From: Gelidibacter pelagius
GTDB lineage: Bacteria > Bacteroidota > Bacteroidia > Flavobacteriales > Flavobacteriaceae
Length of the DNA: 64,000 bases
Assembly (NCBI RefSeq): GCF_017581925.1
Contig: NZ_JAGEVG010000005.1
Location: forward strand, 124,001 to 188,000
Direction of reading: 5' to 3'
Shown: piece by piece, positions 41,691 to 48,663 of the stretch
How the letters are laid out: the number at the start of each line of letters is the position of its first letter
Position numbering within the stretch: the first letter of the stretch is position 1
Program-made: the position numbers and the translations under genes
Notes under the pieces: model-generated
Databases searched by the model: none
Told to the model about the DNA's origin: nothing
Seen by the model: only the letters and a program-made list of their open reading frames with translations

Positions 41691-44600
41691 TTACTCTTCC
41701 ACAGTTTTTAAATTGTCGTCAGAGTTTCTGTCAATCAACTTGTTATAAGGATCAATCCCTGCTTTTAAAGGTTTTTTATCAGTGATCACCGTAAACGTAT
41801 TGTCATCAGACTCTAACCATTCCAATTCAAAGTACAACGGATCTTTAATGGTAACTCCATCTGCGTTGACCACATCTTCGCCAAACAAGCCAATGTCCAC
41901 CAAGTTTTTCTTGTCGTCCACCCGATCTTCCTTGCCTTTGTTGTCATAATAAATTTTCTTTGAATTTACCGTAAACGTCGTTTCCCATTTGCCATTGTCC
42001 AAAGCTTTTGTTTTGGCATTCATCACCCTGTTTTCATACAATACGATCTCTTTGAACCCATCATCAACTTTGTATTTTAAAGAATCTGGCGTCACGGCGT
42101 ACAGTGCGTTATACAGATCTTCAGAAGTAGCATACACCCCTTTCTTATTATATTTAAATTCTTCTAAAAAGTTTTTCAACCCACCATTGACAACGTCCTC
42201 TCCCATGACATCTTGTAGATCATACATAATCATAGAGCCTTTTTCGTACACAATATAGCTGCCTGTTTCTACGTCCATTAAGGTGCGTTCTGGTTTAAAA
42301 CTGAATTTACGACCAGCTAAATAAGTGTCCAACGAGTTTTTCAAAAACGATTTTATTCCATTTTCACCGTACTCTTGTTTCATGGTCATTAACGATGCAT
42401 ATTCTGACAGAGTCTCTGAAATGACATTACCTCCGGTAGTTTTACTTGGCGTGACAATATGACCCCACCACTGGTGAGCAACCTCGTGGGACGTTACTCT
42501 AAAAGCATAATTATAACTGTCAGCTTTTGAGAAATCGGCAGCAAAGCCAAAATCTTCAGAATACGGAATCGTGGTCGAAAAAGACTGCGCAAATGTGGAG
42601 TGTGCCGGGAATTCTATAATGCGAATCACCGAATTCGGATATTCCGTAAAGTTTTTAGAATTATAATCCAGCGCAATTTTCACCCCTTTGATAAAATATT
42701 TCAAATTCCGCTTATGCTTAGGGGAATGGTAAATTTCTATGGCTACTTTTTTGCCACTCGGTGCTGTCCAGCTATCCTTCTCAATGTCATAAGCGGCCGA
42801 AACAAAACTGAAGAAATAATCGGTTTTTTCGTCCAATTTATACTGAAAATAGCTTCTTTCATTCTCCTCCCATTGTTTTGTGAGTGTTCCTGGGGCTACG
42901 GCTATTTGTCCTTTTGAAGTGCTTAATACAGCTTCAAAATTGATATAATCTGCATCCTCATTAAACAAGTTTTTCCTTAGTGCAATACTATCTGTTCGCG
43001 GGGCTAATAAATAATCAAGTTTCTCTAAACCATACTTTTTACGAACGCCATTATCAATTATGGTGCGATCGTAATGAAAAGAAGGAAAAATAGCATCTCT
43101 AAAAAAAGTACCATTATCTAAGATTGCATTTTCAGAATCCATAGAAAATCCGTGCGTATTCACTTTTGTTTCAATGACCAAAGATGCCGTTTCTTTGGGC
43201 TGCAAACTTGTTGGCAATTTGTAGATGAACAGTCGATACTCCTCATCCGATAAAAACGGTTTTAATTCAGCGCCATTATAAACCACTTTGGTGATTTTTG
43301 TATCTGCAATTGGGAATTTCACTTCCATCAATAGCGTATCAATTGGGACTTCGTAATTATTAATCACCTTAAATTCGCCTTTGGCCTCGACGCGCCTATC
43401 TTCAGGAAAAATATCGATAAACGCCTTGAGATCGGTGATTTGAATATGTGGTTGGTCAATATATTTGCCATACTTCTTTTCAGCATTGGCATTGAGTTTT
43501 TGACTGTAGTTACCATCTTCCAATTGGTTCAAGACTTTCAAGTTGTAGTAACTATATGCTCCCACCGACACAAATGCCAAAACAAAGAACAGCATCAGAC
43601 CTAAAGTTCTCCCGCTAAAACGCTGTTTTGCAATTTTCAAACGCTCCCTGGCCGATGACAAGAATCCACGGTTCCAGAAAACGATGCCAACAGTTGCCAG
43701 AATACAGGTCAATAGAATCCAATATAGGTTCAACCAGAATTTTCCGTATAAGTAATGTCCAAAGCCATTTAAATCGCTCAAAAAACCTCCTGGTGTTGCT
43801 CCAAAAATCACCAATGGGTTCGATGTTTTAAGCGCCAATGCCAATAAAATTGGTAAACCGACATAAATAATAATGACTATAAAATGTCCCAAAAACTTAT
43901 TATTGACCAACACATGAATGAAAAATGCCAAAAGCACGGTCATCACATAATTGGGAAAGACACTTGTGAAATTGTAGGTCAGGTACATGCCCAATTCATA
44001 ATGGAAGTAGCCATTAAATGTTTGGTACAAAACACCAACGACCACATTGAGCAAAGTTAATACTACTGCTACGCCAATGAGTGAAATAATCTTAGATAGA
44101 TATAAGGTGATATTGCTGACGGGTAAAGCGTCATAAAATTCAAAAGTTTTATTCTGTTTGGTTCTATGTACCGCTTCCCCTGCATAAATCACTAAAATAA
44201 TGATTGAAAACAATGATATTCCAGCTGGAATTTGGGTCACCATATAGCGCGTCAGCGGCAATGACGGTGTTCCATAAGTTTGATTGGATAGGTAGGCAAT
44301 AAATCCTGCAACGATAATGCCCATGACAATCAAAATGACAAAGACGGTTTCTTTCACAATCGATAAAAACTCAATTTTGCTCAAGGACAACAGATTTTCT
44401 CGACGCGCTTTCGCATTAAAAACCTGAGTGATGTTTGGTATAAAGGCAGAAGGCACATAGGCTTCCTTGCTTTCTTTTGACGATTTCTGCTTCGACCCAG
44501 TCAAAAATCCTTTGTACGAAAACTTAAATAAGGTAAAAAAGAAAATTGAAAAAGCAATGCCCAACCATAATAAACGGTTGAGTCCAAATTTACCTGAAAG

Positions 44601-45296
44601 CGACAATTGGGTGTTGTTTAACTCATCCACAGTCCAATATTTTGTAAGATACGCATGGGCAGTTTCCCCAAACGGATCCACATACACACTTAACCACTCG
44701 GTATCCAATCCAGAAAGCAATTGCGCAGATGCAATAGTCAGGATAAGAATGACAATACCTCCTAAATATAAGATGGACATGCGTTTGAAAAATGTCATCA
44801 AACAAAAGAACAGACTGCCTATAAAAAAGGCGTTGAACATTAATAAATACACAAAAGGCAAAGCATATGAGGTCAAGTTAAAAGACGTGTAGACCCCATA
44901 ATCAGGCCGTTCCAAAAAAGCACCAATGCTGAAGCCAATCATGGCACCGATAACGGCACCAATATTCATAATCGTAACGATGGTAAAACTGCCAAAAAAT
45001 CGTCCTAGAATATAATTTTTTTCCGAAACTGGAAAAGTAAAGTACGTTTGGGCTGTTTTATGCTCCTCGTCCCGATAGACCGCGACGCCCATGATTGCGG
45101 CATAAAAAAACAAGCTTATGATACTCATTGCTCCCAAAACACCTACAATGGCATTGGGACTATTGGTATATTGAGCGGTAGCAGAATTAGCAAAAACACT
45201 CATCAAAAGTGGGATAACAAACATCAAAAAAATGTAGATGTAGGTGGCTGGTCGTCTTAACCGATATTTCAGTTCAAATAAAAATATTTCCTTCAT
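41691..45296 (-). CDS. ABC transporter permease fused to an M1-family peptidase domain
   Basis: 1201 residues. Residues 1 to about 600 contain about 13 membrane helices arranged as two ABC-2-like permease halves (first half 1-270, second from about 315). A periplasmic M1 domain occupies about 610-1130, with the zinc motif HEVAHQWWGH (about 933-942) and the third ligand in SETLSEYAS, 19 residues later rather than the 18 of classical M1 enzymes. The usual GAMEN exopeptidase motif is not seen; the matching stretch reads TIPYSEDFGFAADF. This fusion family is widespread in Bacteroidota and some Proteobacteria, but its substrate is unknown. The gene starts 2 nt after the stop of the ATPase gene, so the two are coupled. 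The stop faces the DeoR gene convergently with a 36-bp gap and no clear hairpin. Confidence 0.93.
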   Translation of the reverse strand: MKEIFLFELKYRLRRPATYIYIFLMFVIPLLMSVFANSATAQYTNSPNAIVGVLGAMSIISLFFYAAIMGVAVYRDEEHKTAQTYFTFPVSEKNYILGRFFGSFTIVTIMNIGAVIGAMIGFSIGAFLERPDYGVYTSFNLTSYALPFVYLLMFNAFFIGSLFFCLMTFFKRMSILYLGGIVILILTIASAQLLSGLDTEWLSVYVDPFGETAHAYLTKYWTVDELNNTQLSLSGKFGLNRLLWLGIAFSIFFFTLFKFSYKGFLTGSKQKSSKESKEAYVPSAFIPNITQVFNAKARRENLLSLSKIEFLSIVKETVFVILIVMGIIVAGFIAYLSNQTYGTPSLPLTRYMVTQIPAGISLFSIIILVIYAGEAVHRTKQNKTFEFYDALPVSNITLYLSKIISLIGVAVVLTLLNVVVGVLYQTFNGYFHYELGMYLTYNFTSVFPNYVMTVLLAFFIHVLVNNKFLGHFIVIIIYVGLPILLALALKTSNPLVIFGATPGGFLSDLNGFGHYLYGKFWLNLYWILLTCILATVGIVFWNRGFLSSARERLKIAKQRFSGRTLGLMLFFVLAFVSVGAYSYYNLKVLNQLEDGNYSQKLNANAEKKYGKYIDQPHIQITDLKAFIDIFPEDRRVEAKGEFKVINNYEVPIDTLLMEVKFPIADTKITKVVYNGAELKPFLSDEEYRLFIYKLPTSLQPKETASLVIETKVNTHGFSMDSENAILDNGTFFRDAIFPSFHYDRTIIDNGVRKKYGLEKLDYLLAPRTDSIALRKNLFNEDADYINFEAVLSTSKGQIAVAPGTLTKQWEENERSYFQYKLDEKTDYFFSFVSAAYDIEKDSWTAPSGKKVAIEIYHSPKHKRNLKYFIKGVKIALDYNSKNFTEYPNSVIRIIEFPAHSTFAQSFSTTIPYSEDFGFAADFSKADSYNYAFRVTSHEVAHQWWGHIVTPSKTTGGNVISETLSEYASLMTMKQEYGENGIKSFLKNSLDTYLAGRKFSFKPERTLMDVETGSYIVYEKGSMIMYDLQDVMGEDVVNGGLKNFLEEFKYNKKGVYATSEDLYNALYAVTPDSLKYKVDDGFKEIVLYENRVMNAKTKALDNGKWETTFTVNSKKIYYDNKGKEDRVDDKKNLVDIGLFGEDVVNADGVTIKDPLYFELEWLESDDNTFTVITDKKPLKAGIDPYNKLIDRNSDDNLKTVEE

Positions 45297-45298
45297 GA

Positions 45299-46174
45299 TT
45301 AAACGGTTTGAGGTTGGTTAATACTATAGAAGTAAAAGTCTTCCAAATTGTTATTGACCACTTCAAAGCCGTCACCAGGGTGAACATCACTGAAGACATT
45401 GACGTTCATATTGCCACTTCGCAAATAGGTAGAAAGCACGGTATATTCTGATTGGTATTTTTCAATCTCATTCTTTTCGATGCGTTTGCGATATATTTTG
45501 TCGTTCAACGACTCCGATAATTCTTGCGGGTGTCCCTGCACCACAACCTGCCCATCATTAAAGACCGCCATGTTGGTACACAAGTTCACGACATCATCGA
45601 CAATATGGGTGGATAAAATCACCACGGCATCCTCGCCCAACTCACTTAACAGATTATGAAAGCGATTGCGTTCCAAAGGATCCAATCCAGCGGTCGGTTC
45701 ATCAACAATTATTAATTTAGGATTTCCGATCAAGGCTTGGGCAATCCCAAAACGCTGTCGCATCCCACCAGAATAATCACCCAAATTCCGCTTTCTGAAT
45801 TTGTAGAGATTCACCTGATTTAAAAGATCGGCCACATAGGCCTTGCGATCATTGCTGCTATGGATGCCTTTGATCTTTGCGATATGGTTTAGCATCATTT
45901 CTGCGGATACTTTCGGATAAACACCAAAATCCTGAGGTAGATAACCCAGTACTTTTCTTAGTTCTTCAGGTTGATTGAACACATCAATCCCATCAAATTC
46001 AATGCTGCCGCTGTCGGCAACTTGCAAGGTAGCGATGGTACGCATCAAGGTCGATTTGCCGGCGCCGTTGGGACCTAAAAGACCAAACATTCCCTTTTGA
46101 ATTTCAAGGTTGACATTGTTTAAAGCCTGGGTCCCGTTAGGATAGGTTTTATTCAGGTTTTGGATAGAAAGCAT
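45299..46174 (-). CDS. ABC transporter ATP-binding protein, partner of the permease-peptidase fusion
   Basis: 291-residue ATPase with Walker A GPNGAGKST (about 35-43), Q-loop LPQDFGVYP, signature YSGGMRQRFG, Walker B LIIVDEPTAGLDP and switch His in ILSTHIVDD. A C-terminal extension of about 70 residues (DKIYRKRIEKNEIEKYQSEY) is typical of ABC-2-type ATPases. It is the first gene of a two-gene operon with the fusion permease. The family suggests export or membrane-protein handling; no substrate can be assigned. Confidence 0.96.
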   Translation of the reverse strand: MLSIQNLNKTYPNGTQALNNVNLEIQKGMFGLLGPNGAGKSTLMRTIATLQVADSGSIEFDGIDVFNQPEELRKVLGYLPQDFGVYPKVSAEMMLNHIAKIKGIHSSNDRKAYVADLLNQVNLYKFRKRNLGDYSGGMRQRFGIAQALIGNPKLIIVDEPTAGLDPLERNRFHNLLSELGEDAVVILSTHIVDDVVNLCTNMAVFNDGQVVVQGHPQELSESLNDKIYRKRIEKNEIEKYQSEYTVLSTYLRSGNMNVNVFSDVHPGDGFEVVNNNLEDFYFYSINQPQTV

Positions 46175-47550: not shown

Positions 47551-48663
47551 TTAGAAGTTCCGTTTAATTTTTAGTGATTTCAGTGCATTATAATTTTCCG
47601 TGGCAATGCTCTCGGCATCCTTAACCATATCTTTACCTATTGAGGAGGTCAAGAAAAAGCCAACTGTTGATGAGATGGCTATGCCAATAAAAGGAAAGTA
47701 TTTAGAAGCAGATTTAGCGGCTACCGTTGCTCCTGCTCTTTTCAACAGCAGCATAATGGCATCTTTTCCTAAATATTTGACACTAAACTGTACGGCTTTG
47801 GCGGTCAATACTTTGGCGTTATTTTTATCCAATAAATCCATTATAAAATGCTGTTGCTCATCGCCCAGGCAATAAATATCCCTGACATGGACCCCCATTC
47901 TTGTGAGCAAGGATATATCCACGCCAACGTCAAGTCCGGGAATAGGATTGACACCATTCACTGCTGATAAGGCAGCATGCATACCTACAATCTTATTTGC
48001 GAGTTCTTTTTTTTTTGAAAGGATTTTTTGGCTGGTGATGTTGATATCCGCAACAAACCGTTGTTGTTTGATCCTCCCCAAACTTGAGTAAACATCATCC
48101 AAAAGCTGGCCTAAATCATATTCCTGTGGATAGTCTGCAGAAGTTAAATAAATACCATTGAGCCGGTATCCTTTAAGATTTTGTTCAAGGTCATTGAAAA
48201 CGGTATTATAGGTTTCTTCCTCAGAGATATCGCGTCTTAAGGCACGATCAATTGAGAAGTCTATTTTTGTCCGAACCGCAAAAACGGGCATTTTTATTTT
48301 TAAAAGTTCATCTATTAAGTATAGATCATCTTCGTAAAACCGGTCGGCAGTCACTAAAATGACGCAATCAAAATGGCTGATATTAAATGTCTCAAGATAT
48401 TGCTCCTTGGGAAAATTGATGGTGGAGCATCCCGGTAAATCATAAAAGCTCAAACCCCTATGTTCAATCGGCTTCCCAACCTCCATAGTCGTTTCTACTT
48501 CGCCCACCTCAGCAATATGTTCACCAACAATGGCATTGATCAGAGAGGATTTTCCAACCCCGCTCCTACCGATGATGCCACACTTTATTTTTGCGGATTC
48601 GAACTTATCCAGATCGGCTTTAAGCTTTTTCTCGAGACTTGCAATTTCTTTGTTTTTGCTCAT
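47551..48663 (-). CDS. IRG-like (immunity-related) GTPase
   Basis: 370 residues. A short helical lead is followed by a GTPase domain: P-loop GRSGVGKSS (32-40), switch Thr pair near 58-59, G3 DLPG (75-78) and G4 TKID (132-135). The TKxD form of G4, together with VILVTADRFYEDD before it and the NGIYLTSADYPQEYDLGQLLDDV segment after it, follows the pattern of vertebrate IRG (p47) GTPases rather than Era, HflX or dynamins. After about residue 200 comes a helical domain with VNGVNPIPGLDVGVDISLL, reminiscent of the IRG phrase around PVPGLS, and a hydrophobic helix (YFPFIGIAISSTVGFFLTSSIG, about 325-346) that may insert in membranes. It stands alone with no partner gene. Function in bacteria is unknown. 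Confidence 0.85.
   Translation of the reverse strand: MSKNKEIASLEKKLKADLDKFESAKIKCGIIGRSGVGKSSLINAIVGEHIAEVGEVETTMEVGKPIEHRGLSFYDLPGCSTINFPKEQYLETFNISHFDCVILVTADRFYEDDLYLIDELLKIKMPVFAVRTKIDFSIDRALRRDISEEETYNTVFNDLEQNLKGYRLNGIYLTSADYPQEYDLGQLLDDVYSSLGRIKQQRFVADINITSQKILSKKKELANKIVGMHAALSAVNGVNPIPGLDVGVDISLLTRMGVHVRDIYCLGDEQQHFIMDLLDKNNAKVLTAKAVQFSVKYLGKDAIMLLLKRAGATVAAKSASKYFPFIGIAISSTVGFFLTSSIGKDMVKDAESIATENYNALKSLKIKRNF

Follow-up and report, generated by a model that had tools for sequence, protein, structure and literature searches.

Mouse immunity-related GTPases (IRGs) break open pathogen compartments, and the Pfam IIGP family already includes bacterial entries. The closest described proteins are the vertebrate IRG (p47) GTPases, such as Irga6/IIGP1, IRGB10, Irgb6, and GM4951. 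IRGB10 is reported to mediate membrane disruption (PMC7815755), and the mouse IRG GM4951 is reported to have a lipid-metabolic function at lipid droplets (PMC9288484); thus, IRGs need not be immune effectors. Like the protein analyzed here, GTPases of Cyanobacteria and Caenorhabditis elegans show IRG-like features outside vertebrates (Bekpen et al., 2005, PMC1297648), and bacterial IRG-like GTPases have been in print since 2005. In the same paper, the kinship of bacterial IRG-like GTPases is considered not provable by sequence alone, and evidence for the IRG fold is named as the stronger case.

Bacterial dynamin-like proteins (DynA, BDLP, LeoABC, and IniA) act as GTP-driven membrane oligomers, to which the action proposed below may be likened. 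DynA of Bacillus subtilis forms membrane clusters and postpones lysis after phage infection (PMC8844932). A bacterial origin was also described for AIG- and AP-GTPases in immunity (PMC8195603), and the word "IRG" was not found by a word search in the text of this paper. The listings of the literature searches, covering few subscription journals, showed no whole-chain bacterial IRG fold, no IRG-like phage cargo, and no IRG in a BREX cluster; among the papers listed, only that of Bekpen et al. (2005) was recognized as treating bacterial or phage-borne IRGs.

The analyzed stretch of DNA, herein referred to as the window, comprises 64,000 nucleotides of a Gelidibacter genome. An ORF with an ATG start was found at 47551-48663 of the minus strand and encodes a 370-aa predicted IRG-fold GTPase, herein referred to as the window GTPase. 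Orthologs with 86-98% identity were found in five named Gelidibacter species, and a relative with 60% identity in Brumimicrobium mesophilum. The same search yielded seven loci in all, the seventh being a G-domain match only, in Hydrogenobacter. For the six Gelidibacter copies, dN/dS was 0.017-0.064 in all 15 pairs, which identifies the frame as a selected gene; for the adjacent aldo/keto reductase gene it was 0.05-0.06 in two pairs, similar to the GTPase gene or slightly higher. The gene is thus real and not a chance ORF.

All features of the window GTPase described below are encoded on the minus strand. An N-terminal helix (residues 2-23, 48595-48660) was assigned by DSSP of the predicted model, and alignments with IRG structures start at model residue 1-3 and at Irga6 residue 44-47. 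It is followed by the G domain (residues 24-195, 48079-48594, bounds approximate), assigned by Pfam, PDB, and structure matches. Three nucleotide-binding motifs were found in this domain. The G1 motif, or P-loop, GRSGVGKS (residues 32-39, 48547-48570) is of the GKS type, and G32, G35, G37, K38, S39, and the following S40 are invariant in nine sequences. The G3 motif DLPG (residues 75-78, 48430-48441) was recognized in the sequence and in alignments. The G4 motif TKID (residues 132-135, 48259-48270) is part of VRTKID, mouse IRGs having VRTKxD, and VILVTADRFYEDD stands ahead of it. DLPG is followed by C79, at the position of Ras Q61, and then by FPKEQYLETF, resembling FPPDTYLEKM of Irga6. The position of Ras Q61 is occupied by Y or C in the relatives and by I or V in mouse IRGs; as an IRG feature, this residue is "far from diagnostic" according to Bekpen et al. 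(2005, PMC1297648). The combination of a GX4GKS P-loop and a TKxD G4 motif, used as a criterion for IRGs, is present here as GRSGVGKS and VRTKID. TKxD is not exclusive to IRGs, and TKxD together with G-domain resemblance alone is not diagnostic of them.

The C-terminal helical domain (residues 197-362, 47578-48075, bounds approximate) was assigned from the IRG helical fold of the model and from a sub-threshold similarity to DUF697. It includes the NPIPGLDVGVDISLL motif, NPIPGLDVG...DISLL (residues 239-253, 47905-47949), found by sequence alignment and modeled with pLDDT below 50 at residues 238-244. It also includes a hydrophobic segment (residues 325-343, 47635-47691; mean Kyte-Doolittle hydropathy 1.6 over 19 residues), which may face the membrane and is preceded by low pLDDT at residues 315-327. 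All the motifs quoted in the sequence-only reading, including the segment ahead of TKID and the hydrophobic stretch, were located in the translation. The GKS P-loop, DLPG, VRTKxD, and, in the model, the helical domain are common to the window GTPase and the vertebrate IRGs. Unlike them, the window GTPase is bacterial, lacks interferon control, has no Gly2 (it starts with MSKN), and is shorter, and its C-terminal NPIPGLD motif is common to DUF697-like domains.

The window GTPase matched the Pfam family IIGP (PF05049) with 106 bits (cut-off 24, E 3.1e-30), residues 5-279 being aligned to profile positions 15-301 of 375. The next Pfam match was MMR_HSR1, with 41.8 bits. Only a high IIGP score is telling, because a TPR-histidine kinase (about 23-24 bits), two dynamin-like proteins (31-36 bits), and a small GTPase (32.5 bits) also match this profile. 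In a phmmer search against PDB sequences, 13 IRG sequences led (E 1.4e-21 to 6.2e-14), with Irga6 at the top (residues 17-254), followed by Era (E 4.2e-7). Profile A4, built from six proteins of bacteria and phages, matched mouse IRGB10 over nearly the full length (residues 51-401, E 1.2e-34); its matches to other IRGs stop at residues 286-338. The C-terminal part, used as a profile by itself, matched no IRG in PDB, so it is the full-length alignments that support the helical domain at the sequence level. The best 25 of 53 NCBIfam rows were all general GTPase or P-loop models, with no IRG model among them, and the best one was the small_GTP domain (42.8 bits, cut-off 42.5).

The structure of the window GTPase was predicted by AlphaFold2 without templates from a nine-row alignment of this protein and its relatives; this alignment is thin, and the AlphaFold2 training set may have held IRG structures. 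The mean pLDDT values of the five models were 79.3, 78.8, 71.7, 57.6, and 47.7, and the first model (pTM 0.78) had low confidence in the two segments mentioned above. In the Foldseek comparison that the sequence-only reading had proposed, the 38 top PDB matches were all IRG chains (E 2.2e-14 to 5.5e-10). VIA-align 2 aligned the model with GM4951 (Z 29.3, rmsd 3.2, 330 residues) and Irga6 (Z 27.8), the IRG alignments extending from model residue 1-3 to 364-365. All 18 listed IRG entries, including GM4951, Irga6, Irgb6, and IRGB10, had Z 21.4-29.3 with 304-343 residues aligned. The best non-IRG protein among the entries listed was YsxC (Z 15.7), which matched only the G domain (model residues 21-197), and Era also matched only this domain. 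BDLP (Z 14.5) and mitofusin 1 (Z 14.4) reached further than YsxC but with rmsd above 7. An alignment of the helical part with Era, YfjP, or septin, the outcome that the sequence-only reading had set against its own assignment, did not appear, and YfjP was absent from the entries listed.

As in Irga6, the G domain of the predicted model is flanked by N- and C-terminal helices, an arrangement taken as the criterion of the IRG fold. The stalk of dynamin-like proteins differs from that of the model, as judged from BDLP (rmsd 7.4) and IniA (Z 13.4, residues 1-202); models of LeoA and LeoBC had only partial similarity to the window and phage proteins. For a related phage protein (from contig L049, see below), the low-confidence model (pTM 0.52) matched mitofusin 2 (Z 15.1) above the IRGs (13.4 and below), and this result counts against an IRG fold shared by the whole bacterial group. 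The best matches among the viral structures of BFVD were GTPases of giant viruses, with TM-scores of about 0.3. Taken together, the IIGP score, the profile match to IRGB10, and the whole-chain structure match of the predicted model support the assignment to IRGs made from the sequence, and the window GTPase is very probably a bacterial member of the IRG family and fold. Its predicted whole-chain IRG fold distinguishes it from the set of Bekpen et al. (2005), as that set is described in their paper, and the prediction provides, for one bacterial family, fold evidence of the kind that this paper asked for.

The C-terminal part of the window GTPase is similar to DUF697 (PF05128) below the cut-off of 27.7 bits (15 bits, E 0.021). 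Sub-threshold similarities were also found for the relatives from Brumimicrobium (20.2 bits, E 0.00055), Azospirillum (E 0.11), and phage contig L049 (E 0.019), and no match was listed in the DUF697 scan of the relatives from Deinococcus and phage contig L050. By hhalign, profile A4 was aligned with two GTPase-DUF697 proteins: L034 from Bacteroidota (298 columns, E 1e-15) and WP_004889328, encoded by the Acinetobacter plasmid pXBB1-4 (309 columns, E 9e-17). These PF05128-like proteins have a G domain and the same kind of C-terminal domain as the window GTPase. Unlike it, the L034 protein had a marginal IIGP match (19.6 bits), the pXBB1-4 protein had none at E 0.1, and both form a clade apart from the IIGP proteins. 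The window GTPase might accordingly be viewed as an ordinary GTPase-DUF697 protein with an IRG likeness confined to the G domain, as suggested by the C-terminal similarities (E 0.0006-0.11), the full-length profile match to such a protein, and the failure of the C-terminal profile alone to match IRGs. The match to IRGB10 over residues 51-401, the whole-chain structural match far above other folds, and the phylogenetic tree make this view highly unlikely. The two assignments would agree if DUF697 and the IRG helical domain were relatives, and we infer that these two domains are related.

The phylogenetic tree was built for 12 rows, including three mouse sequences and two GTPase-DUF697 rows as outgroup; these remained after five of the initial 17 rows had been left out as long or uncertain. 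Mouse IRGs, a Bacteroidota group, and a group of phage, Azospirillum, and Deinococcus proteins were placed together opposite the GTPase-DUF697 rows by a 100/100 branch. The 17-row tree contained the same groups with many long, unsure branches. In the best tree, mouse IRGs are on the outgroup side (68/71, with a warning of long-branch attraction), and neither a clade of mouse and Bacteroidota sequences (p-AU 0.257) nor one of mouse and phage-group sequences (p-AU 0.251) was rejected. If bacteria had recently acquired an IRG gene from animals, this would fit the predicted fold common to both. Such a transfer is extremely improbable given the long branches between them, the native GC content in Gelidibacter, and the best trees, in which the three mouse sequences are not nested beside Gelidibacter, the clade with Bacteroidota nevertheless not being rejected. 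As far as these sequences go, the data are compatible with a descent of animal IRGs from bacterial ones.

IIGP matches were found in six of the nine genomes of the genus. In the three genomes without the gene, the two flanking genes were also unmatched, both at E 1e-30, in a search without a positive control, and at E 1e-50, in a search that matched the other five genus genomes, which left no flanks by which to show an empty site. Two IIGP matches were found among 249 genomes of the family, one of them spurious: the second match (L014, 24 bits) is a TPR-histidine kinase and was rejected as an IRG. In the phylum of Hydrogenobacter, six genomes were over the IIGP cut-off; the three that were scanned (L099, L100, and L101) contained two dynamin-like proteins and one small GTPase, which were not counted as IRGs. 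Among 395 genomes of the class, with five candidates scored per genome, profile A1 matched 47 at E 1e-10, and only the window's own protein passed profile position 169. The window protein matched 170 of 395 genomes of the phylum, and the best score after its own was 35 bits among the matches listed. From these counts for genus, family, class, and phylum, the IRG-like gene is rare and scattered in this sample, which spans few bacterial phyla and excludes Cyanobacteria.

Among 72,556 plasmid records, the window protein matched three, two of them over at least 80% of the length (Azospirillum thermophilum and Deinococcus sp. QL22). A query with the phage protein matched nine, six over at least 80%, the four additional ones being more distant GTPases of Acinetobacter and Klebsiella. 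No match covering 80% was found for either query in 50,697 phage records. In IMG/VR, the window protein alone found no close relatives, and profile A1 found seven loci, two of which it matched along most of their length; three additional scans yielded no new relatives. PADLOC contained no strong full-length match to the window GTPase, the best being LeoA over residues 7-79 only (23 bits, E 8e-6), and LeoBC matched part of the G domain, at best with E 3e-10 for the L049 phage protein. Matches of the IRG-like proteins to PHROGs were weak and partial.

The two IMG/VR loci are related phage contigs, L049 and L050, in which the IRG-like gene appears as cargo, reversed relative to the tail genes (L049 6617-7723, full-length; L050 1266-2291, nearly full-length with a frame break near the start). 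In both contigs, it is convergent with an adjacent tail tube gene (PF18906), whose deposited sequence in L049 is broken into two frames. The gene on the other side encodes a tail assembly chaperone, recognized as such in L050, and a similarly placed ORF in L049 looks alike by eye; a tape measure gene, identified in L049, lies beyond it. The GC content of the IRG-like gene is 0.519, about 19 points below the flanking means of 0.710 and 0.711 (sd 0.015 and 0.020), and none of the 57 and 37 flanking windows is as low.

Opposite orientation and foreign composition are typical of cargo expressed from prophages, not of lytic genes. The phage copies might instead serve the phage itself, in lysis timing, counter-defense, or host takeover, with the bacterial copies as domesticated remnants, and the same kind of site in two phage contigs and the foreign GC content favor this possibility. 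It is unlikely, since orientation and composition fit prophage-expressed cargo and the Bacteroidota copies form their own clade and occur in the window genome and five named Gelidibacter species with mostly kept gene order.

The plasmid copy of Azospirillum, with a GC content of 0.454 between genes of 0.680 and 0.676, was counted on this basis as a single-gene transfer. Genes for phosphatidylserine synthase and decarboxylase were found nearby on the other strand. In Deinococcus sp. QL22, the plasmid copy is located inside a BREX cluster (brxL, pglZ, N-6 methylase, and brxC), and a second small GTPase gene starts one base downstream of it (L046 7977-9726). These two GTPases possibly form an accessory pair of BREX. 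The GC content of the copy (0.49, mean 0.583) is not unusual for the locus, six of 69 windows being as low. A DarT-like gene is also present in this cluster.

Acinetobacter and Klebsiella plasmids (pXBB1-4, L086 166-1966; L087 5923-7723) carry, beside sul2, the gene of a GTPase whose end resembles DUF697; it overlaps another GTPase gene, which is septin-like. In the tree, this more distant GTPase falls on the DUF697 side. Between Deinococcus and Acinetobacter, the partner GTPases have just 21% identity, and a conserved two-gene system is therefore a lead rather than a result.

Overall, the IRG-fold GTPase is best explained as a dynamin-type membrane oligomer, plausibly a late anti-phage or superinfection-exclusion factor, to which we assign a probability of roughly 0.4. 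The computed basis consists of the intact G1, G3, and G4 motifs, the predicted IRG-type N- and C-terminal helical domain, and the hydrophobic C-terminal segments. The protein would rest in the cytoplasm in a GDP-bound state. On binding of GTP, the G domains would pair, and the helical domain would meet the inner membrane via the hydrophobic NPIPGLDVG and FIGIAISSTVGFFL segments. Oligomers formed in this way might protect, stabilize, or remodel the damaged inner membrane, the trigger being phage attack or another membrane stress. The mobile copies might then act as late anti-phage or superinfection-exclusion cargo. Within this scheme, the GTP-driven membrane oligomer, drawn by analogy with IRGB10 and DynA, is the best supported element, and a dynamin-like action at membranes is reasonably probable; we infer membrane binding, oligomerization, and a phage-related role. 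The settings in phages and in the BREX cluster favor defense and supply a concrete functional hypothesis. A defense role for the Gelidibacter copy is tentative. This defense context consists of a single BREX locus and a pair of related phage contigs, taken without a control for the background frequency of such placement, which counts against it, as do the PADLOC matches, confined to part of the G domain.

The chromosomal setting of the window GTPase gene gives a different picture. The sequence-only reading had described the gene as standing alone in an accessory-looking stretch. The first part is true as far as tested, as none of the eight neighboring proteins scanned with Pfam is a GTPase or a known defense protein; they are an aldo/keto reductase, an amidohydrolase, a GMC oxidoreductase, an ABC ATPase, a DeoR regulator, a lipocalin-like protein, and two proteins without a Pfam match. 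A defense island around the gene was rejected for the scanned neighbors, which are mostly metabolic. The second part stood only partly: three of nine genus genomes lack the gene, but the neighbors are metabolic, the base composition is native (GC content 0.398, window mean 0.378), and the aldo/keto reductase gene adjoins the IRG gene in four of the five other Gelidibacter loci (L002, L003, L004, and L005). ABC transporter genes adjoin it in L002 and L005, and L003 and L004 end 1.0 and 2.7 kb past the IRG gene. Gene order differs in Gelidibacter algens (L007), and none of the window's neighbor genes was found near the IRG gene of Brumimicrobium.

These data bear on an alternative function, that of a housekeeping membrane or lipid GTPase, which would organize or repair the inner membrane, or bring a partner to lipid surfaces, and would not act specifically against phages. 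For the Gelidibacter copy, it is almost as likely as the membrane-oligomer explanation and stays below an even chance. Quiet evolution and a metabolic neighborhood speak for an older, general membrane function: purifying selection is strong, the aldo/keto reductase gene is retained, the GC content is native, and no defense neighbors were found among the scanned proteins. In addition, GM4951, an IRG with a reported lipid role (PMC9288484), is among the nearest structures, and the Azospirillum copy lies near the phospholipid genes, though on the other strand. The dN/dS values, the mostly kept gene order, the native GC content, and the metabolic neighbors mean that the Gelidibacter copy is without signs of an arms race, which counts against defense. 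Against a housekeeping function, three of nine genus genomes lack the gene and no other full-length relative was found in the 395 class genomes with five candidates scored per genome, which is unusual for a core function, and four relatives are located on phage or plasmid DNA.

Some other genes of these loci were also observed. In G. algens, a stretch of about 6 kb (L007 11114-17026) separates the IRG gene from the ABC transporter genes that stand near it in the window, L002, and L005, and holds a glycoside phosphorylase-like gene (GH130) and a gene for a 1082-aa protein. In the window, a 1201-aa gene at 41691-45296 of the minus strand, with an ABC-transporter permease part and an M1-type aminopeptidase part recognized by eye, pairs with the ABC ATPase gene at 45299-46174. 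At E 1e-50, this 1201-aa gene has no match in any of the three genus genomes that are also without the IRG gene.

If the membrane-oligomer explanation is extended to the whole group, bacteria and temperate phages would have a mobile IRG system of single-gene, membrane-acting GTPases with a DUF697-type helical domain that guards against phages, in the form of superinfection-exclusion cargo of prophages, BREX accessories with a partner GTPase, and settled chromosomal genes. Animal IRG resistance proteins would descend from the same stock, and cell-autonomous IRG immunity would have begun as anti-phage defense. This broad scenario is rather doubtful. The predicted fold and the phage and BREX copies make the old question of the origin of vertebrate IRG immune proteins testable. 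If borne out, the scenario would root another vertebrate family of cell-autonomous immunity in bacterial anti-phage defense and tie the IRG helical domain to a bacterial domain of unknown function, DUF697.

Relatives of the C-terminal domain were also found free-standing, without the GTPase domain. The first, of 162 aa, is encoded beside an integrase gene on a Chimaeribacter plasmid (L047 4998-5486). The second (L048 2941-3444) is from OR845008, an unverified phage record that may be host DNA; this protein matched DUF697 with E 1.5e-4 and IIGP with E 0.026 at profile positions 239-324. The PG and the two Asp residues of the NPIPGLDVGVDISLL motif are retained in these free-standing relatives.
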